Origin: a virus
Direction: 5' to 3' (one strand)
DNA length: 20,757 nt
IMG/VR virus record: IMGVR_UViG_3300025435_000118
Span: 1 to 20,757 of that record
Numbering within the stretch: position 1 is the stretch's first letter; each line of letters opens with the position of its first letter. A model generated the notes under the pieces. The model searched no databases and was not told the origin of the DNA. It was given only the letters and a program-made list of their open reading frames with translations. The position numbers were made by a program, and so were the translations under genes. Shown in pieces: positions 1 to 13,365 of the stretch.

Positions 1-210
1 CCAAAAAAAAAAAAAAAAAAAAAAAAATTTTCCGCTAAAAAATTTCGCGCGGTGCCCATACGGGGCCGAGGCGACATTTCAAAATCAAAACTTAAAATTT
101 CACCAAACATATATAGGACAGTTTTCAAATTTTTTCGGAACCAAATTTTTCCAATTTTCAAAATCAAAACCAATCCAACCGAAACCATTTTACCCCGGAC
201 CCACCAGATT
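1..210. other. AT-rich non-coding left end with a 25-base A run
   Basis: No credible gene is seen here. Bases 3-27 are an uninterrupted run of A, which is T on the strand that is transcribed leftwards. The rest is rich in A and T tracts, with a short GC-rich patch near 48-74. A leftward transcript would end in a long U run preceded only by a weak CCGC/GCGG stem, so a terminator is possible but poorly supported. The homopolymer could also be an assembly or contig-end effect. Confidence 0.5.
77..170. repeat. Direct repeat pair TTTCAAAATCAAAAC
   Basis: The 15-base word TTTCAAAATCAAAAC occurs exactly at 77-91 and again at 156-170. It lies in the AT-rich stretch to the left of the iteron array. 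AT-rich repeats beside iterons are common in origin regions as unwinding elements. Whether that applies here is inference, and low complexity makes chance repetition easier. Confidence 0.5.
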
Positions 211-221
211 GACATCTTGTC
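211..221. promoter_or_regulatory. Palindromic operator candidate GACA-TCT-TGTC
   Basis: This is an exact copy of the palindrome GACANNNTGTC. Leftwards on the minus strand, ATGTCA is followed after 17 bases by TAAAAT, so the site may overlap the -35 of a leftward promoter leaving the window. Confidence 0.55.
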
Positions 222-289
222 CTAAAATAATTTCCGTCATTTCGTTTTATTGGTACCTAAAAAATAAAACCGCCGCGGCGCACCCGCGA

Positions 290-300
290 GACACCTTGTC
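290..300. promoter_or_regulatory. Palindromic operator candidate GACA-CCT-TGTC
   Basis: This is a second exact GACANNNTGTC copy in the left non-coding region. On the plus strand TTGTCC is followed after 17 bases by TATTTT, a weak rightward promoter candidate without an obvious gene. Confidence 0.5.
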
Positions 301-359
301 CCTGAAAATCCAATTTTATATTTTTTAATTAAATCTTGTCTTTCCTCGCTAGTGCCGCT

Positions 360-401
360 GCCGCAGTTAGCACCCCTTAAGGGGTGTGCTATAACTGCGG
401 C
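360..401. repeat. Large inverted repeat (hairpin or cruciform) inside the iteron array
   Basis: The outer arms GCCGCAGTT (360-368) and AACTGCGGC (393-401) are perfect complements and are themselves iteron copies in opposite orientation. The core CACCCCTTAAGGGGTG (371-386) is a perfect 16-base palindrome. Two extra bases on the right side make the full structure slightly asymmetric. Cruciform extrusion, a single-strand initiation hairpin or a dimeric protein site are all possible. Confidence 0.7.
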
Positions 402-543
402 AAAAGCACGTACTAAGCTGAGGCCGCAATGCCGCAATATTTGCCGCAGTCTGCCGCACTTAATTTTACTGCGGCACAACCCAATGTTTTCAATGGGTTA
501 GCAGTGCCGCAGTTCTGCCGCAGTAAACTTATTTTAATACCTT

Positions 544-2640
544 TTAATCAAATAAACCCATAACCCCTGACAGGCTGTCCTTTGCCGCAGTGTTTTCGGA
601 CAACTTGTCCTGTTTTACGACCTCTATAAACTTCTTAGGCATACGTTTTGAATCATTTTTAACGACTTCACGCAATTTTTTTTCTGAAATTAAACGTCGT
701 ATGATGTCTTTAATCTGCCCCGATTGTCTTCTATCCGACGCATCAAAGCCAAACGCTTCTGCTATCGCCAAGCCCGCCCACTGCTCTGAACGGAAGTCCG
801 ACCGCCATTCTCCAACCGATAACATGTCGATGGCGATGACCTCATTCTCCCGACGCTCGGCTACTGTCACCTTGATTGCCGCCGTTGGCACGACGTAGCA
901 ACTCGTCAACTCATCGCCATCCTCATCAACACCCAACAACATGGTACGTAAGTTAAAATCACCGACCGGCCCTTCTTCACCCACACGGGACTTAGCGAGC
1001 CACAATTTATGCTCGCTTACCATGCCCGTCAGTTGGTTCCGCTCGGCGGTGATGGATAACACCGCATCACTGCCGCCCCGCCACGCTGACGCGCCCCGTA
1101 AGCCCGTCTCTGCCCCTTTGCCATAATGATGGATGGGGAGGATCAAAACATCCAACGCATCCCCGATTACCTTCATTGCCCGAATTATCTTGGATGCTTC
1201 GGAATTGTCATTCTCATCTTGTAACGCGAATACCGCCGCTAATGTGTCAACAACAATGGCACCGAGACGAACACCGTATTGTTTCAGCATTCTGGCCTTC
1301 AAGCCTTTCAGCTTTTGTATGAACGCCTTGACATCTTCGCTGCGTGTAAAATCAGGGAATTTGCCGGTCCATGCAATTGGAAGTGGTCTTTCAACGTTGC
1401 GAGCCATGCGTGCGATGGTGAGGCGTGGTTGGATTGTTTCCGCTCCCTCACCGGCGACGAACAACACGCCGACGTTTTCCTTGATCCGTTTACCAAAGAA
1501 AGTCTGCCCGGTAGCGAGCGCAACCGCTAGATCAATAGCGATAAATGTTTTACCGGCGCCGGACTGGCCGCCGATGAAAGCAATACCGTTGCGGGGCAAT
1601 AAACCCTTGATCAGGGATGGCGGAAAAGTGAACGGTCGCTCATCGTCAAATTCAAAATCTTGATTTTCCGCCTTCCCGTCAACGGGTGTCTCGCCTGTTG
1701 TCTCGCTTGAGATTTCGCTTTTTTCATACCATTGACCTGTGACGAAAAATGGATTATTGCCGCCTTGCATGATACCTGACCGCATGGTCGCCTGTATGCT
1801 GCGACGACCATCGTCATTACCAAGACCAGACGTGTCCGCCGCGTGGATGATGATCAGTTCAGCCTCGTCGCGCTGAACGAGACCGGCGGCGATGGCTTGC
1901 CCAGCGATGTAGGAGACATGGAATAAGGCGTTGTTCCGGTTGCCTTCCGGCGACAATGCGAGCGCTTCCGCCGCCGTGTTGATCACCTCTAACGCTTGGA
2001 GCCGATCCGTTGCCCGATCACCGCCAACGAATACCGGCTCAACCCAATCGTCACGCACATTTGCTTTTCGCTCGACGATTGTCCAGCAAGCGTTCAGAAA
2101 AGCTTCCAGTTGCGTGTTGCTGATGATCGGGATTTTGTCGCTTGTGGTCGTTAGGTCTAATGGCGAATTGTACTCCCAAAGATAATCGCGTCCGGCCTTG
2201 GCGTGGTAGCCGAAGCCGACGATCTGACCGGAACCGGCAAAAATTTCGATGGGGTGAAGTTTGCGGGAGCGGATGCTGCCGTCGTTGCGGTAAATTACCA
2301 GATAGCGCGGATGGCGACCAATACGAACAAGTGGCGTTCCGCCAAGATACTCCACTGAAAGGAGACCGATTTGTCTGGCTTGTTCTTCGTTCTCTATGTC
2401 GATGTCGATGGCAACAAGTTCGGGCTGGATGGCGAGACAGATGACCTGTCCTTCTTCCTGCCCGCGACCGCGGATCATGCTTTGCAACTCATCCGCTTCC
2501 CACTGGCGGGAATTATATACGTCCCAACCGTTGATCGATGGTCGCTTCGTGTCGGCGTAGCCGGGGATTGGACGCCAACCGTTATTAACCAACAACTCGG
2601 CGTGCTGGGCGAAGCGTGACAGATTGGGATGGACATTCAT
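544..2640 (-). CDS. Prim-pol / RepA-type helicase replication protein
   Basis: The 698-residue protein joins an N-terminal bifunctional DNA primase/polymerase domain to a C-terminal RecA-like AAA_25 helicase domain. The primase part (about 1-190) shows the acidic signature AIDIDIE (D79, D81). The helicase part has a Walker A GGQSGAGKT (357-365), a Walker B AIVVDTL (D465) and a HHYGKG...RGASAWRGG segment (504-523) typical of RepA/DnaB-like hexameric helicases. It should prime and unwind phage DNA at the fork. The ATG at 2638-2640 overlaps a possible 21-codon ORF by ATGA, and its Shine-Dalgarno (SD) match is weak. A GGACAT-TC-ATGTCC near-palindrome spans the start codon. The protein ends in GLFD, as does the GapR-like protein. 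It is the last gene of the leftward block and lies beside the iteron array, which supports an initiator or helicase-loading role. Confidence 0.92.
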   Translation of the reverse strand: MNVHPNLSRFAQHAELLVNNGWRPIPGYADTKRPSINGWDVYNSRQWEADELQSMIRGRGQEEGQVICLAIQPELVAIDIDIENEEQARQIGLLSVEYLGGTPLVRIGRHPRYLVIYRNDGSIRSRKLHPIEIFAGSGQIVGFGYHAKAGRDYLWEYNSPLDLTTTSDKIPIISNTQLEAFLNACWTIVERKANVRDDWVEPVFVGGDRATDRLQALEVINTAAEALALSPEGNRNNALFHVSYIAGQAIAAGLVQRDEAELIIIHAADTSGLGNDDGRRSIQATMRSGIMQGGNNPFFVTGQWYEKSEISSETTGETPVDGKAENQDFEFDDERPFTFPPSLIKGLLPRNGIAFIGGQSGAGKTFIAIDLAVALATGQTFFGKRIKENVGVLFVAGEGAETIQPRLTIARMARNVERPLPIAWTGKFPDFTRSEDVKAFIQKLKGLKARMLKQYGVRLGAIVVDTLAAVFALQDENDNSEASKIIRAMKVIGDALDVLILPIHHYGKGAETGLRGASAWRGGSDAVLSITAERNQLTGMVSEHKLWLAKSRVGEEGPVGDFNLRTMLLGVDEDGDELTSCYVVPTAAIKVTVAERRENEVIAIDMLSVGEWRSDFRSEQWAGLAIAEAFGFDASDRRQSGQIKDIIRRLISEKKLREVVKNDSKRMPKKFIEVVKQDKLSENTAAKDSLSGVMGLFD
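569..579. promoter_or_regulatory. Palindromic operator candidate GACA-GGC-TGTC
   Basis: This is an exact GACANNNTGTC copy within the last codons of the prim-pol gene, next to the final iteron copy at 583-591. Confidence 0.45.
599..609. promoter_or_regulatory. Palindromic operator candidate GGACA-ACT-TGTCC
   Basis: This is an exact GACANNNTGTC copy, extended by one more paired base on each side (598-610). It lies in the 3' end of the prim-pol gene, 30 bases from the preceding copy and flanking the last iteron. Confidence 0.45.
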
Positions 2641-2702
2641 GTCCTGTCCCCACTAATGGGGGACGGGTTGCGTTTCCGCACAACAGATTGTATATTCTTC
2701 AT
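2637..2702 (-). CDS. Possible 21-residue basic leader peptide upstream of prim-pol
   Basis: An ATG at 2700-2702 opens a 21-codon frame starting MKNIQSVVRKRN. Its TGA overlaps the prim-pol ATG in an ATGA arrangement. Such coupling is the rule in this genome, which is the main support. The upstream AAGG lies about 11 bases from the start, so initiation looks weak. It may be a coupling or leader peptide, or simply an accidental frame. Confidence 0.25.
   Translation of the reverse strand: MKNIQSVVRKRNPSPISGDRT
2668..2696 (+). promoter_or_regulatory. Candidate rightward promoter antisense to the prim-pol leader
   Basis: TTGCGT (2668-2673) is separated by 17 bases from TATATT (2691-2696), which differs from the consensus -10 at one position. 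Transcription would start near 2703 and run to the terminator ending at 2784. No plus-strand gene follows. Confidence 0.4.
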
Positions 2703-2703
2703 G

Positions 2704-2784
2704 CTAGATTGCCTTGCTTCGATCTCGCTCTTTCAACACCTCCCGACTGGCCCGCTGCGTCTCTCCCCGCAGCGGGTCTTTTTT
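2704..2784 (+). ncRNA. Candidate ~80-nt antisense RNA opposite the prim-pol leader
   Basis: A plus-strand promoter candidate and a strong plus-strand terminator bracket about 80 bases with no plus-strand coding frame of note. The RNA would be complementary to the untranslated leader of the prim-pol mRNA, including a GGGAGG sequence. Antisense RNAs over the leaders of replication genes control copy number in many plasmids. That parallel is inference, and no transcript evidence exists here. Confidence 0.35.
2751..2784 (+). terminator. Intrinsic terminator, plus-strand orientation
   Basis: A perfect nine-base stem CCCGCTGCG/CGCAGCGGG (2751-2759 and 2768-2776) with an eight-base loop is followed by TCTTTTTT. 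The T tract is on the plus strand, opposite to every protein gene in the window. In the minus-strand mRNA the same stem would form in the prim-pol leader but has no U tract after it. Confidence 0.75.
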
Positions 2785-3022
2785 AGTGTCGGACAGTATC
2801 AGCGTAGATAAAATTTTCTATGTCTGTGGCTGACATAGCTGCATCATTAAAACCGTGCGACAATGCGGCTAACGCATTGAGCGGGTTATCGTTACCCACA
2901 ACAACAGCGTCCGCGTTATGGGTGATAACGATGGTAGAAAAGAAATTGTCATCCAGTTTGTTTATTCTACCGACAAAATCTCTTGCCAATTCAAGAATGG
3001 CGCTTCGGGTCTCTTGGTTCAT
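2783..3022 (-). CDS. Hypothetical protein, 79 residues
   Basis: The function is not recognised. The protein begins MNQETRSAILELARDFVG and has an N-terminal amphipathic helix. A more hydrophobic core follows (STIVITHNADAVVVGN), with no transmembrane segment or metal site. Its ATG overlaps the TGA of the gene before it as ATGA, so it is probably co-translated with the two genes upstream. It is the third gene of the operon headed by the ribbon-helix-helix protein. The stop lies at the edge of the plus-strand terminator. Confidence 0.65.
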   Translation of the reverse strand: MNQETRSAILELARDFVGRINKLDDNFFSTIVITHNADAVVVGNDNPLNALAALSHGFNDAAMSATDIENFIYADTVRH

Positions 3023-3273
3023 TTGCCTAATATCCCCAATGTATGTAGCGCAATTGTTACTTCGACACCTTCTCTAAGCTTATCGGGTTTCATACCTGAC
3101 TCAAGAGACGACTCGACAAGAAATGTAGTAAGACCTGCCATCACGCAAGCGGTAAGTTCTCTTTTGTCGGTTTCCAGATTGGCTTCCAAAAACACCAGAC
3201 AGGTGCGGGCGAGTTCTTTGTGGAACTCTTCAATTAACTCATTACGACGGTCCATTTTTTTATCTTGTTTCAT
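3019..3273 (-). CDS. Hypothetical protein in the RHH operon
   Basis: The function is not recognised. The first ATG of the open frame (3327) lies deep inside the preceding gene, so the likelier starts are 3273 (MKQDKKMDRR) or 3255 (MDRRNELIEE). The second is just after the upstream stop. The product of about 78-84 residues looks alpha-helical, with a highly charged N-terminus and a helix around AGLTTFLVESSLESG. It overlaps the ribbon-helix-helix gene by 14 bases (start 3273) and the next gene by ATGA, which suggests one translation unit. Confidence 0.65.
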   Translation of the reverse strand: MKQDKKMDRRNELIEEFHKELARTCLVFLEANLETDKRELTACVMAGLTTFLVESSLESGMKPDKLREGVEVTIALHTLGILGK

Positions 3274-3451
3274 CTGTTTCTTGCCTTTTCTGTTTACGTG
3301 GACGTGGATGCGGGATGTTGAAAGCAATACAAAGTGCTTCCAGAATAACTTCGGTCTGACCGAAATTTTCTGTAATACGTTTATTGATTTCTTCTCGGAT
3401 AATTGCTGGCACGCGTAGCGTGACAGATTTGGTATTATAACCCGGTCGCAT
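3260..3451 (-). CDS. Ribbon-helix-helix (CopG/Arc-type) transcriptional repressor
   Basis: The 63-residue protein has the short beta strand and two helices of a ribbon-helix-helix fold. SVTLRVP (about residues 9-15) is the DNA-reading strand, followed by a helix in IREEINKRITENF and a second in TEVILEALCIAF. The C-terminal tail is basic (PRPRKQKRQ). The start at 3451 has a good SD AAGGGAG six bases upstream. The gene is the first after a promoter whose -10 region overlaps the perfect palindrome AACGTATTACGTT, so autorepression is likely. It could bind as a dimer or tetramer; that is family knowledge rather than something visible here. Confidence 0.8.
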   Translation of the reverse strand: MRPGYNTKSVTLRVPAIIREEINKRITENFGQTEVILEALCIAFNIPHPRPRKQKRQETDETR

Positions 3452-3476
3452 TGTTTCTCCCTTCTGCGATGAAAGA

Positions 3477-3489
3477 AACGTATTACGTT
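3477..3489. promoter_or_regulatory. Operator candidate AACGTA-T-TACGTT
   Basis: Perfect six-base arms surround one central base. The site covers the -10 region of the promoter at 3478-3506 and lies 26 bases upstream of the ribbon-helix-helix start codon. It is the natural autoregulatory site for that protein. Confidence 0.55.
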
Positions 3490-3506
3490 ACTGCGAGACT
3501 TGTCAA
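3478..3506 (-). promoter_or_regulatory. Promoter for the ribbon-helix-helix operon
   Basis: On the minus strand a perfect -35 TTGACA (3501-3506) is followed after 17 bases by ATACGT, or after 15 by TAATAC. The block AAAAACCTGATTGACA around the -35 is nearly identical to that of the helicase promoter at 13398-13426. It starts inside the last codons of the DNA polymerase gene. Confidence 0.65.
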
Positions 3507-6955: not shown

Positions 6956-7273
6956 TTATTTCAACGCTTTCCATTTTGGATCTTCTTTTAATTCAAGTTC
7001 AGGCCGTCTCTTTTCAGGGCGTTTAGGATATATCAATTCAGGAAATTTAGCGTCAGGGTTATAGTTCGCGTAAAGATTAAAAGTCAGTCTATGAAGGCTA
7101 AGCACTTCCCATAACCATTTTATTTCATCCCGCAAATCCGCAACCACGTCAGCGGTTTCTTCCATTTGTTTTTTCAACTCTTCGTTTTCTTTCCGTAGCC
7201 GAATTAAATCGGCTACGGTTACATCATCAGCGTGGCGTTTGGTTATCAATTTTTTGCTTCTAAATCCCGGCAT
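6956..7273 (-). CDS. Coiled-coil hypothetical protein ending in EDPKWKALK
   Basis: The open frame reaches 7423, but the ATG at 7271-7273 has AGGAG six bases upstream and avoids overlap with the previous gene, giving 105 residues (MPGFRSKKLITKRHADD). Residues about 19-55 form a charged heptad-like coiled coil (RLRKENEELKKQMEETADVV). A proline- and charge-rich tail follows. The C-terminal nonapeptide is shared with the neighbouring downstream gene. The function is unknown; the coiled coil suggests oligomerisation or partner binding. Confidence 0.72.
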   Translation of the reverse strand: MPGFRSKKLITKRHADDVTVADLIRLRKENEELKKQMEETADVVADLRDEIKWLWEVLSLHRLTFNLYANYNPDAKFPELIYPKRPEKRRPELELKEDPKWKALK

Positions 7274-7290
7274 GAGTCGCTCCTGAAAGG

Positions 7291-7310
7291 GCGGGGCTGT
7301 TACGCCCCGC
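7291..7310 (-). other. GC-rich mRNA hairpin between two genes
   Basis: A perfect seven-base stem GCGGGGC/GCCCCGC with a six-base loop lies between the stop of the DUF6378-like gene and the SD of the coiled-coil gene. In the minus-strand mRNA it is followed by CCTTTCAGGAG, not a U tract. It is therefore more likely an mRNA stability or partial attenuation element than a full terminator. Confidence 0.5.
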
Positions 7311-7317
7311 TTTGATG

Positions 7318-7686
7318 TCAGTTTGTTTCGTTTATTGCTTGCGCGATGTCCGCCGATATTTGCGGCATGGTTGGTGTAACACTGTCGGCTGCGAGCTGCC
7401 CGTAACCAACAATGTCGTCCCAATGGTCACGAAAATTGGCGTTGCCGTTGAGGATACGCGCCAGTTTGACCGAAATGGATTCCAACGATTCACGTTGGCT
7501 GTCGGTCAGACTTGACCAATTTCTTCCGCTGCGAAGCACGTCCTTGATGGACTGGCTAAGAGCTGCGGTGTCTTTGTAATTACCGTGGGTGCGGCTGCGA
7601 TCGGCTAAATTAACTGGCATTGTAGTCTCCTGTGTGGTTGGTTGCATGGGCTTTGCTGCCCGTTCTAAGATTTCCATCAAATTCAT
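7318..7686 (-). CDS. DUF6378-like phage protein
   Basis: The central segment, from RTHGNY through VLRSGRNWSSLTDSQRESLESI to KLARILNGNANFRDHWDDIVGYGQLA, matches the DUF6378 family common in phages; its function is unknown. The 122-residue form starts at 7686, where ATG overlaps the methyltransferase TGA as ATGA. An internal ATG at 7618-7620 has a much better SD (CAGGAG, six-base spacing) and would give a 100-residue protein starting MPVNLADRSRTHG. Either or both starts may be used. The heptapeptide MPVNLAD also occurs inside the acidic repeat protein at 11183-12034. Confidence 0.8.
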   Translation of the reverse strand: MNLMEILERAAKPMQPTTQETTMPVNLADRSRTHGNYKDTAALSQSIKDVLRSGRNWSSLTDSQRESLESISVKLARILNGNANFRDHWDDIVGYGQLAADSVTPTMPQISADIAQAINETN

Positions 7687-9914: not shown

Positions 9915-11186
9915 TCATAGTTTTTCAAAAAAAGATTCTTTGGCTTTAGCAGCCGGACGGGTAGTTTTTTTCTCCGATACCAAATTTGTTCCGGTAATCG
10001 GGTTGTGCCACATATTTTCCAGTTCTCCTTTTCGTTTTGCGCCAATAATTTTTTCGACTTGTGCGGGCGACGATAATTTTTTTTGAAAAATTTGATCGTC
10101 AGACAATTTTATTTTTGATTTTAAATCAGAAATAATTTTTTCTTCGTCTGCTGCCCATTTCCGGTTACCAATTTTTTCTACCAATTGGTAATTTGGAATT
10201 TTTATTCCTTGTTCAGCTGTTGCGTGCGCTGACGCACGAACTGCTTTTATCCAATCCTCCAACATTTCGAGTCCGTCAAGGATGTGGGATAGTTCATCCG
10301 GTGATAACGCCGGTACGGTATTGGAAATCATAGGTGCTGTCTCCAGTGTCACGTCTTCAAACCATGTTCTTGCAATTTCAGGTGCTACCGAGAGTGCCTT
10401 TTTGCGTCGGGCTGGGCACATACCTTCTGCGGGGCAGAACGCACAGTTGCCGGTCGTAAGCGACTTTTCAGCCCATTCGTCAAAGAGTGTCCGGCTGCCA
10501 TTGATCTTGTCAAACGCTTCAAGCGCAATTTTCGACCGACCCATGGCCTTGAGCAGTTCAGCCGTCCATTCGATCAGTTCCGCTAAATGGAACGTCTCGC
10601 TACGGATGCGCCCGTCCTTGTGATAGGCGCGAGGCTGGACAATCGTGACCTTGATGTAGTCGATCTTGCTTGACAGTTCCTTCGGCGCATTCAAGAGAGC
10701 CATCAGCGCATAGGTCCGCGTCTGCTTGTTCTCGTTGACATCGACGATGCCCTTGCCGTGCTTGAGATCAACCACTTCCAAGATACCGGAATTGGCGTTT
10801 AAGATCACCGCGTCACACGTCCCGCCCGCCTCAAAAGGTGGGTCTAGGTCGTCAAGGGTGTAGCGCTCTTCCAAGAAAAGCAGCGCGTCCTTGCTTTGCT
10901 CCACGACGTAATCAACGTAGGTCTGGGCTGAATCAGCGATCTCCTCGGTGATCTCGATCTCAAAATTGCCGACCTTGAGAACGTCACCAAGGTAAGCGTG
11001 ACAATTTTTGTCACCCCGAAGTGCTTTCTCGGATATTTCGTGCGCGGCGGTGCCTTCCGCCGCGTAGATGCTGTCTTTCTGATCTGGGGCAATAGAGACC
11101 ATCGCCATCCGGCCCGCGCACGTCCAGTTGGCTGCCGTGGCGCTGGCAGACCAACGTGCGTGGAAACGGTCAGAATGTGCGCTCAT
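9915..11186 (-). CDS. DUF2800 PD-(D/E)XK nuclease, Cas4/AddB-like
   Basis: The 423-residue protein has the DUF2800 layout. WTCAGR with C23 stands near the N-terminus, then GGTCDAVI (D125) and LEVVDLKHGKG (D140, K142) form the nuclease active site. The late cluster C248, C251, C257 (GNCAFCPAEGMC) with C23 makes the four-cysteine set that binds an iron-sulphur cluster in Cas4 and AddB. The C-terminal part (about 300-423) is lysine-rich and less conserved. It probably processes DNA ends in phage recombination with SSB, helicase and RusA. The start overlaps the previous stop as ATGA. Residues around 350-400 are encoded by unusually AT-rich codons. Confidence 0.88.
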   Translation of the reverse strand: MSAHSDRFHARWSASATAANWTCAGRMAMVSIAPDQKDSIYAAEGTAAHEISEKALRGDKNCHAYLGDVLKVGNFEIEITEEIADSAQTYVDYVVEQSKDALLFLEERYTLDDLDPPFEAGGTCDAVILNANSGILEVVDLKHGKGIVDVNENKQTRTYALMALLNAPKELSSKIDYIKVTIVQPRAYHKDGRIRSETFHLAELIEWTAELLKAMGRSKIALEAFDKINGSRTLFDEWAEKSLTTGNCAFCPAEGMCPARRKKALSVAPEIARTWFEDVTLETAPMISNTVPALSPDELSHILDGLEMLEDWIKAVRASAHATAEQGIKIPNYQLVEKIGNRKWAADEEKIISDLKSKIKLSDDQIFQKKLSSPAQVEKIIGAKRKGELENMWHNPITGTNLVSEKKTTRPAAKAKESFFEKL

Positions 11187-12034
11187 GCTTGCACCTTACG
11201 GTTGTACCAGTTGTTTTCGGTTGCATCGATAATGGCGTCATACGCTTTCTTGAGCGATGCAGGGTCTTTAGGCATCAAGCGAAGCGCCGTGACCGTTGGC
11301 CCGAAAGTCTTCTTCAAAATGTCCGGCCCATCAATCAAGGTGTTAACCATCTTGTCGTCCACGTCGTATTTCTTGGCGTAGACCATGAGAGCATCGCGCA
11401 CATCTTGCTCGGTAATCTCATCTTCTGGCTCACCAACATCGTCAAAAAGACTGGTTTCTAAGTCTTTTTCTATTTGTGCGTTCCAATCTTCACTTAAATT
11501 TTCCGACAGAGCCGTAGAAATTTTATAAATTGCTTCGCCCAAAGCTTTTTGATCGTTTGGAATATCGGCAATAGCGCAACCAATAAGAGTAGGAATATTC
11601 TTTTGCGCCGCAACAATCCCAAATTTCTTTGTGTACGCACCTACCCAGATACGAACGTCATCATGGGTTAAAACATCGCTCGACGCTTCCGCTGCTTCGT
11701 CATCTGCGTCCTGTTCATCAATCTCCGGTACGGCAACCGGCGCTGGCGCGGGTTCTTCTTTGGCTTTGCGCGTACGGCGTTTTTTCGGTTCTTCAACCGG
11801 TGGTTCAGTCGTCTCTGTGACCAAATCAGCCAAATTGACCGGCATTGAATAGCCGGAAACTTCAGTTTCCGGTTCCGTCAAATCGGCGGTCGGGGTAGGA
11901 GCAGATAGCCGATAATTAAGATTATACGCGTCAATACGAACTGTAATTTGAGTCCAATTAAAAAATTTAAGGTACGGCTCTAATGCGTCAGTAACATCTT
12001 GTGTCGGTAAAATAATAAATTCGGTTTTAATCAT
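11183..12034 (-). CDS. Acidic-linker protein with two repeated C-terminal domains
   Basis: The start at 12034 is firm: AGGAG seven bases upstream and ATGA overlap with the helicase stop. The 283-residue protein has a beta-rich N-terminus, a basic stretch (KKRRTRKAKEE), an acidic linker (DEQDADDEAAEASSD) and two related domains. The first begins LTHDDVRIWVGAYTKKFGI and ends AIYKISTALSEN. The second begins ITEQDVRDALMVYAKKYDV and ends AYDAIIDATENN. These look like a diverged tandem duplication of about 70 residues. LETSLFDDVGEPEDE lies between them. The function is unknown; its neighbours and acidic linker suggest a recombination or replication mediator. Confidence 0.75.
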   Translation of the reverse strand: MIKTEFIILPTQDVTDALEPYLKFFNWTQITVRIDAYNLNYRLSAPTPTADLTEPETEVSGYSMPVNLADLVTETTEPPVEEPKKRRTRKAKEEPAPAPVAVPEIDEQDADDEAAEASSDVLTHDDVRIWVGAYTKKFGIVAAQKNIPTLIGCAIADIPNDQKALGEAIYKISTALSENLSEDWNAQIEKDLETSLFDDVGEPEDEITEQDVRDALMVYAKKYDVDDKMVNTLIDGPDILKKTFGPTVTALRLMPKDPASLKKAYDAIIDATENNWYNRKVQA

Positions 12035-13365
12035 CTGATCACTCCTTTGATTGCTGTCCATAATCTCAAAAGGGAAGCTTGAAGGGCTTCGTCTATTGAA
12101 CCTTCTATGCAACAGACGCGCACAAACGTGTTGCGGGTCTGGTTCACATTCGTAATTCGCATGGCTGCTTGCGCCTGATCTTTGGGTGTGAACGATGTCT
12201 CTACAAACCAAAGTTCGTTGGCTGACGAGAAATCCACCGCTTCGCCCGCCGCCTGAATTTGCCCAAGCATAACGCGATTTTCTTTATTATTTCTAAACGC
12301 TAACTCAAATTGCTCACGTTCTGGTGTAGGGGTAGAACCATCAATCCGAAGCGGCTTGAACTTTTCAAGTCCTGCTTGAAGAATGTCACCTACTTCCCTG
12401 TGCCAATACATCAAAACGATCTTGTCTAAGCCATTGTCGAACTCTTCCTTGACGGCCTCGACCACAGCTTGCGCCTTGATGTTGCCGGTGAGGCGACGAA
12501 GCGGACCAAGTTCCATTTCAAGCAATTTGGTGTCGCCGTTCTCGGCAGCTTTCAAAATAGCTACCTTCTTCAAATCGCCATCAACTTGCTTGCGAACAGC
12601 GGGCGACACGATCAACGGAAACAGTTCAAACACCGGTGGCCGGATGCCAATATCGCTCTGCGTGCGGCGCAAGATAAAGTCACCCAAACGCTCGCGCAAT
12701 TCGCCTTCGTTTTTGCCCCCGATAACCACAGGTATCTTGTTGAAGTTGGAGATTTTCTTCATCCGAACGATGCAGTACCGGTGACGAAAATCCTCAAACT
12801 TGGTTACGTTCGGCCATCCACGGTTATTGTCAGCGAGAAGCCGGTCTGGGCATGATGAACGCATGGTCGTCCATATATCTGAAGGGTCGTGCGGCAGCGG
12901 GGTGCCTGTAAGAAACCACGCCCGCGTGTCCGACCGAACAAAGGCGTAGGCATCAAATATTCTTGCGCCGCCGCCCATAGATTTGCCCAAAATGGCTTCG
13001 GTGCGTTTCGCTTCAGGGTTTTTGCAGTTATGAGATTCATCGAGGATCACCAGATCGTTGTTGCGCCGGAAAGCAAATGTCGCCGCGCCGTTATAGGAAA
13101 AAATACGAACATCGCAGTCGGCGGCGTTTTTATCGACGCCCATGATACCGACCGTGCGACCAAGGTTGCTCCACGTCGCAAATCCGCGGCGCCAGACAGC
13201 GCGGCCAGATGCGGTCGTAATAACATCTATGTTCTTGGCAATAATCATATCGGCGGCAATGATGGCCGCTCCGGTCTTTCCGACGCGGGGTTCATCCGCG
13301 AGAAGCGCACGGTGACGGGCGGCTAAGAATTTGGCCCCCGTAATTTGTGTCGGCATTGGTGTCAT
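12031..13365 (-). CDS. SNF2/DEAD-box-like helicase
   Basis: The 444-residue protein has superfamily 2 helicase motifs. ADEPRVGKT (23-31) is motif I, with RV in place of the usual small residues. LDESHNCKNPEAKRT (109-123) is the DESH motif II. FLTGTPLPHDPSDIW is motif III. A C-terminal lobe has KIVLMYWHREVGD, EAVDFSSANELWFVE and QAQAAMRITNVNQT (motif VI). Such compact proteins are frequent in phage replication blocks and probably remodel DNA or displace proteins. The ATG lies nine bases after GAGGG, downstream of a promoter with perfect TTGACA that overlaps an operator palindrome. It ends ATGA on the next gene. Confidence 0.9.
   Translation of the reverse strand: MTPMPTQITGAKFLAARHRALLADEPRVGKTGAAIIAADMIIAKNIDVITTASGRAVWRRGFATWSNLGRTVGIMGVDKNAADCDVRIFSYNGAATFAFRRNNDLVILDESHNCKNPEAKRTEAILGKSMGGGARIFDAYAFVRSDTRAWFLTGTPLPHDPSDIWTTMRSSCPDRLLADNNRGWPNVTKFEDFRHRYCIVRMKKISNFNKIPVVIGGKNEGELRERLGDFILRRTQSDIGIRPPVFELFPLIVSPAVRKQVDGDLKKVAILKAAENGDTKLLEMELGPLRRLTGNIKAQAVVEAVKEEFDNGLDKIVLMYWHREVGDILQAGLEKFKPLRIDGSTPTPEREQFELAFRNNKENRVMLGQIQAAGEAVDFSSANELWFVETSFTPKDQAQAAMRITNVNQTRNTFVRVCCIEGSIDEALQASLLRLWTAIKGVIR

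Follow-up and report, generated by a model that had tools for sequence, protein, structure and literature searches.

A repeat array behind a phage primase-helicase gene is probably an iteron-type replication origin read by the helicase's own C-terminal domain

The initiator helicases SaPI Rep and SCCmec Cch2 use their C-terminal domains to recognise short repeats situated directly downstream of their own genes (PMC7581432). The pRN1 protein ORF904 combines a prim-pol, a helicase and a C-terminal winged helix, and a stem-loop origin has been proposed directly 3′ of its gene; for a related protein of phage BIP-1, the same authors found no iteron-type origin repeats and proposed stem-loop recognition (PMC4234260). 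The DNA-binding domain of PLE RepA_N and the origin iterons covary and swap as modules, with chimeras showing cognate specificity (PMC8263062). AEP primases of the PrimQH type carry a RepA/DnaB helicase and a C-terminal WH, and origin recognition has been suggested for the WH of the related PolpTN2 (PMC5862659).

The window analysed here is the whole of virus record IMGVR_UViG_3300025435_000118, a 20.7-kb fragment of 20,757 bases whose main genes all run leftward, the one concerned being:

544-2640, minus strand: prim-pol/AAA_25 (RepA-like, RecA-fold) primase-helicase of 698 aa, assigned by Pfam AAA_25 and PHROG families

AAA_25 (5e-30) is the sole helicase-type domain above the Pfam cut-off in this protein, in which Pfam found no DUF927 or D5/SF3-type AAA+ helicase domain; Prim-Pol is a weak hit (0.004) under its cut-off, and the PHROG assignments are to primase and helicase families. 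Neighbouring genes encode a family A DNA polymerase, an Enc34-type SSB, a DUF2800 exonuclease, an SNF2-like helicase, RusA and a GH108 lysin, and two minus-strand genes in the interval from the DNA polymerase to the SNF2-like helicase (6956-7423 and 11183-12211) have no convincing family match. A blastn search of window 1-3500 against a cultured-phage collection gave no match, and no PDB sequence relative of the prim-pol was found at E 0.01. The cumulative GC skew has its minimum near 16 kb, which gene content could equally cause, and in a record that is a fragment of 20.7 kb it is uninformative on the origin. A conserved LFD (window 547-555) closes the prim-pol in each of the four genomes whose tail is complete, kept through synonymous changes although the preceding tail derives from repeats; it could be a protein-binding motif, for example a clamp motif.

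Across 359-591, the sequence TGCCGCAGT occurs in seven exact and two one-mismatch copies, with zero exact copies elsewhere in the 20.7 kb. The count and the two reversed copies (394-402 and 468-476) agree with the initial annotation, which had reported seven exact copies and several near ones. The top 9-mer count in 353-609 is 7, compared with a maximum of 4 in 2000 dinucleotide shuffles, of which 0/2000 reach seven. The elements of the array are:

340-348, minus strand: conserved CGAGGAAAG element, just outside the hairpin (alignment A2)
359-367, plus strand: TGCCGCAGT, exact match, left arm of the hairpin
371-386, no strand: perfect 16-bp palindrome CACCCCTTAAGGGGTG, centre of the hairpin, unchanged while the surrounding repeats change; the same core occurs in many other arrays
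394-402, minus strand: TGCCGCAGT, exact match, right arm of the hairpin
418-427, minus strand: conserved GCGGCCTCAG element between repeats (alignment A2)
430-438, plus strand: near-copy TGCCGCAAT, one mismatch, with a homologous site in all compared relatives
442-450, plus strand: TGCCGCAGT, exact, by site comparison with relatives
452-460, plus strand: near-copy TGCCGCACT, one mismatch, by site comparison with relatives
468-476, minus strand: TGCCGCAGT, exact, by site comparison with relatives
505-513, plus strand: TGCCGCAGT, exact, by site comparison with relatives
516-524, plus strand: TGCCGCAGT, exact, by site comparison with relatives
583-591, plus strand: TGCCGCAGT, exact, within the last prim-pol codons; the relatives' coding tails also hold repeats

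The array reaches into the final codons of the minus-strand prim-pol gene and therefore lies 3′ of that gene, continuing past the stop codon. The hairpin has the perfect 16-base palindromic centre previously described, but measures 44 nt (359-402, with a 2-nt asymmetry) and not 42; its strand fold is -20.2 kcal/mol (z -5.4), and it adjoins the 3′ end of the prim-pol/helicase gene, as is the case in pRN1-type replicons. No DnaA box (TTWTNCACA) was found in window 1-1340, even with one mismatch. The AT-rich direct repeats pointed out to the left of the array are also present (TTTCAAAATCAAAAC at 77 and 156), within this feature:

1-350, no strand: AT-rich flank, candidate unwinding region from the AT content of 50-bp blocks

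AT content there is 60-78% in 5/7 blocks, and 56% and 44% in the other two. Beyond the array and AT-rich stretch, three relatives introduced below carry a long GC-rich low-complexity tandem repeat (L008:8600-8880, L009:8650-8809 and L011:420-720), the unit of which differs by phage (GACCGCCTC, GGCAGCAGCGCCCTGGC and GGCGATCC, respectively).

The close relatives of the window gene, hereafter family A, are four loci from IMG/VR (L008, L009, L010 and L015) and one from a Rhizobiales MAG (L016), to which L011 and L013, whose contigs both start inside the array, were added via the hairpin pattern. The relatives' prim-pols are 62-71% identical, and the sites keep the same positions and orientations. 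The initial annotation had named absence of the repeats from relatives sharing the gene as evidence against an origin; the array lies 3′ of the gene in 3/3 relatives with contigs extending past it (L008, L009 and L016). Alignment A2 contains eleven homologous sites of conserved position and orientation, 8/11 of which carry the unit in the window, and each genome has its own version of that unit, with few deviations: ACTGCGGCA in the window, ACTGGGGCA in L008 (where two sites read ACTGTGGCA), ACTGGAGCA in L009 and GGTGACGCA in L016. The hairpin centre and the GCCTC element are constant across relatives, as are, where the sequence extends, CGAGGAAAG and a distal GACA-N3-TGTC palindrome. Because the rewriting affects nearly every copy, whatever its orientation and even within the coding tail, it points to recognition of the units in duplex DNA by a single protein, and not to RNA or protein coding. 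The relatives' contigs repeatedly break off at the array or hairpin or within it (L010 and L016 end there, L011 and L013 start there), a pattern to be expected if several genomes have an identical cassette in common or if a hairpin interferes with assembly.

The part of the protein that may read these sites is its C-terminal domain:

616-852, minus strand: C-terminal domain, aa 597-675, proposed iteron-binding domain; of low identity, travelling with the array, and with an HTH-like helix order in a low-confidence model
685-732, minus strand: putative recognition helix, aa 637-652, a role suggested by analogy with family B, described below

Between the window and its relatives, the identity of this domain is 47-63%, compared with 77-84% for the ATPase and 47-58% for the linker before it, and the residues of the putative recognition helix (SGQ, MVQ, LAR or RAQ) vary with the repeat version. 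AF2 modelling of the full window protein from six sequences reached a pLDDT of 47, and this poor model was left out of the fold search. L009 and L010 have C-terminal domains that are 100% identical on prim-pol parts of 73% identity, their DNA identity rising from ~75% to ~99% at aa ~589 after last helicase segments of 72-85%; between L009 and L011, DNA identity stays at ~99% across the array as far as a point just beyond the distal palindrome and is ~50% thereafter, L010 and L011 coming from the same metagenome and possibly from two different genomes of one sample. These jumps in identity indicate that domain and array moved together. L016 and L010 present the converse: the prim-pols are 85% identical, the C-terminal domains 57%, and the repeat of L016 is a different one.

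Scanning for the hairpin core returned 55 stretches, many of which belong to arrays with quite different repeats, situated 3′ of AAA_25 helicases. Family B, the group with the most members, counts at least 433 IMG/VR relatives, of which 80 were taken. Its C-terminal domain has no detectable homology to that of family A (hhalign probability 0.5%), and the two are therefore handled as separate cases. Nearly all intact family B loci among the 80 have a 3′ array, and in the 58 non-redundant sequences, which represent ten repeat types, repeat type tracks the C-terminal domain and not the helicase. The mean column AMI (adjusted mutual information) with repeat type is 0.016-0.033 for the helicase and 0.27-0.29 for the C-terminal part, the columns of which vary more, by itself raising AMI there. 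Independent of this variability are the swapped pairs described below and a partial Mantel test, which gave r(repeat, C-terminal | helicase) = 0.80 (p = 0.001); the helicase itself contributed nothing positive, with r(repeat, helicase | C-terminal) = -0.22. Helicases that are 97-98% identical occur with different cassettes of C-terminal domain and array. In one such pair (L104 and L123), the helicases are 98.5% identical, the C-terminal domains 53% and the repeats different, and DNA identity around the stop codon is ~95% up to -409 bp, 47-71% to ~+330 bp and mostly 72-98% beyond.

A model of the family B domain, built from the 58 sequences, has a winged-helix topology (pLDDT 81, pTM 0.74), in which the third helix begins with the varying residues. 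A Foldseek search of the PDB produced no match with E below 0.001, and the VIA structural search had a best Z of 5.3, with many winged-helix proteins at Z 4-5, too weak to identify a family. Recognition helices with QTS, QSI or QTT accompany ATTTCGG; ASG or AAG, ATTTGGC; QTS..H, AACACGG; KYT, GGAGTTAG; RYS, TGAGGAAG; QFT..G, TGACAGAG; and QFT IRDRIN, GGACGAAC, an exception to a simple triplet rule being L116, in which KYT with IRDRIG accompanies GGACGAAG. Outside the sample, AGTTGGC is common to phage WO (ERSIRERIS) and Eleftheria terrae (ERTIRERIS), although the two fall in different classes. As an analogue, family B lends strength to the general reading, and is no proof for the window.

Sixteen cultured phages were picked by helicase homology alone, and the 600 bp around the helicase stop were compared with 200 shuffles. 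A 3′ array is present in 7/16, with a repeat unmatched in the 200 shuffles (p 0.005) in RHph_N65, 16-3, RHph_X2_25, CRP-831 and Smarc2, and a repeat at p 0.01 in ST231 and CGphi29; AlexAdler and phi673 have marginal repeats, and the remaining 7/16 show none. AAA_25 phages without an obvious array include GB2A, Vibrio 1.076, Courthouse, Shatter and Baloo. In Rhizobium phage 16-3, a GCGTGACA array lies 3′ of p101, and phage WO of Wolbachia also has a 3′ array. The CACCCC-GGGGTG hairpin, considered as a defining feature, was rejected: it recurs in many arrays, and is regarded as accessory because most family B loci do not have it. Some hairpin is present in 86/98 regions against 16/98 in shuffles, many of them formed by inverted iterons and many of the loci being close relatives. 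A CCCC..TA..GGGG hairpin (C-first, G-last) lies 3′ of the AAA_25 helicase in L073, L081, L106, L110 and L123, and also where the array is not obvious (Vibrio phage 1.076 and sortregn). In the open-access literature, the sole match to the hairpin sequence was E. coli NarL work, and a missing description there is not proof of novelty.

Operator palindromes, which the initial annotation had placed near the right edge of the array, are indeed found there at 569 and 599, two of seven GACA-N3-TGTC palindromes in the window (0.27 expected). The four around the array are:

211-221, no strand: GACA-N3-TGTC, phage operator candidate
290-300, no strand: GACA-N3-TGTC, counterpart of the distal palindrome in L008 and L009
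569-579, no strand: GACA-N3-TGTC, within the coding tail
599-609, no strand: GACA-N3-TGTC, within the coding tail, with a matching place in L008 and L009

Because three more (13414, 14076 and 14091) each lie just 5′ of minus-strand genes, the palindrome is probably a phage-wide operator; it also occurs at the array in L008, L009 and L011. Such operators close to the repeats, and the fact that repressor sites, too, can diversify along with their protein, would fit a reading in which the repeats themselves are operators or stoperators of a phage repressor controlling the replication genes and the helicase is no reader. This is unlikely, since in the window the repeats are limited to the array, their position is 3′ of the gene and within its coding tail, their version tracks the helicase's own C-terminal domain, and the phage already has another, dispersed operator-like palindrome. 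An element acting at the RNA level (a terminator, a 3′ RNA structure or a regulatory RNA of the prim-pol transcript) might be expected from a strong hairpin at the end of an operon; it is very unlikely, as no T-run follows the hairpin at 359-402 and the terminator scan lists no terminator there, window 1-2000 has no Rfam match, both repeat orientations occur, and the rewriting keeps step with a domain of DNA-binding type. A parS-like partition or incompatibility site of a plasmid-prophage would account for clustered repeats and incompatibility-like diversification, but is more improbable still: the array is constantly tied to the helicase gene across unrelated phages, and family scans of the main window genes recognised no partition or maintenance gene. 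With the latter result, and with the same layout occurring in ordinary phages and prophages, the plasmid-like phage state that had been suggested is not supported. Least probable of all is a functionless selfish or mutational spread of repeats, in which gene conversion between units would give uniform change in all copies, since uniformity is confined to the 9-bp units, with spacers and unit orientation differing and site positions conserved, and since repeat version correlates with protein residues.

Comparison across genomes strongly supports an iteron-type origin beside the prim-pol/helicase, as first suggested and on a larger scale than then reported, and the repeat cluster after the primase-helicase gene is very probably where copying starts. 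That this origin is read by the helicase's C-terminal domain, and that domain and repeats form an exchangeable specificity cassette, we consider highly likely. We infer a direct binding, in which several copies of the prim-pol/helicase would attach to the 9-bp repeats via their C-terminal domain (modelled as a winged helix in family B) and assemble on the DNA right behind their own gene. The assembled initiator would then open the adjoining AT-rich DNA or the C4-G4 hairpin, so that the RecA-fold helicase could be loaded at the array and priming begin there. When the reading domain changes, the repeats would be rewritten to match, and exchange of the cassette between otherwise similar helicases would give related phages separate replicon identities. 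Cassette swaps between helicases up to 98% identical suggest that a change of origin identity is selected for, perhaps as an escape from replicon incompatibility or from competitors that target the origin, by analogy with PLE/ICP1 (PMC8263062). More broadly, and with less assurance, it seems fairly likely that there is a widespread class of phage replicons in which a RecA-fold RepA-like helicase reads its own origin, the iteron bases are specified by the first residues of the recognition helix, and cassettes of reader domain and array are swapped to change replicon identity. In this way, a large set of phages and prophages, Rhizobium phage 16-3 and phage WO of Wolbachia among them, gains a candidate replication origin and a putative reader for it, and the repeats paired with their helix sequences provide ready material on which winged-helix DNA recognition could be tested.

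Compared with known systems, the window resembles the SaPI Rep type in its repeats directly 3′ of a putative initiator helicase gene. The strong genetic linkage of repeat version with the C-terminal domain suggests that this domain may set origin specificity. The SaPI/SCCmec motor is a DUF927 or D5-type AAA+, whereas here it is an AAA_25 RecA-fold RepA-like helicase, often with an N-terminal prim-pol, in tailed phages and prophages. pRN1 ORF904 is an SF3 helicase of an archaeal plasmid, while the window protein has no SF3 domain according to Pfam. Lambdoid O/ori iterons are similar to the window system in pairing a phage-specific initiator with its iterons, but O recruits the host DnaB through P and the iterons lie inside the O gene. 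Plasmid iteron (Rep/DnaA) origins share the clustered, repeated initiator-type sites and differ in their DnaA boxes, which are absent from window 1-1340; of the earlier view that the arrangement is more plasmid-type than podovirus, the iteron origin stands, and an initiator-helicase origin as in SaPI or pRN1 is the better wording. PLE differs in that its RepA_N domain reads three semi-palindromic iterons of ~30 bp, and in having no AAA_25 helicase. PrimQH-type primases have the same architecture as the window protein, and iterons are not mentioned in their description (PMC5862659). By analogy, the most economical reading is that the window protein would be an initiator helicase whose C-terminal domain reads iterons behind its own gene, as reported for SaPI Rep and SCCmec Cch2 (PMC7581432) and proposed for pRN1 ORF904 (PMC4234260), but with an AAA_25 motor.
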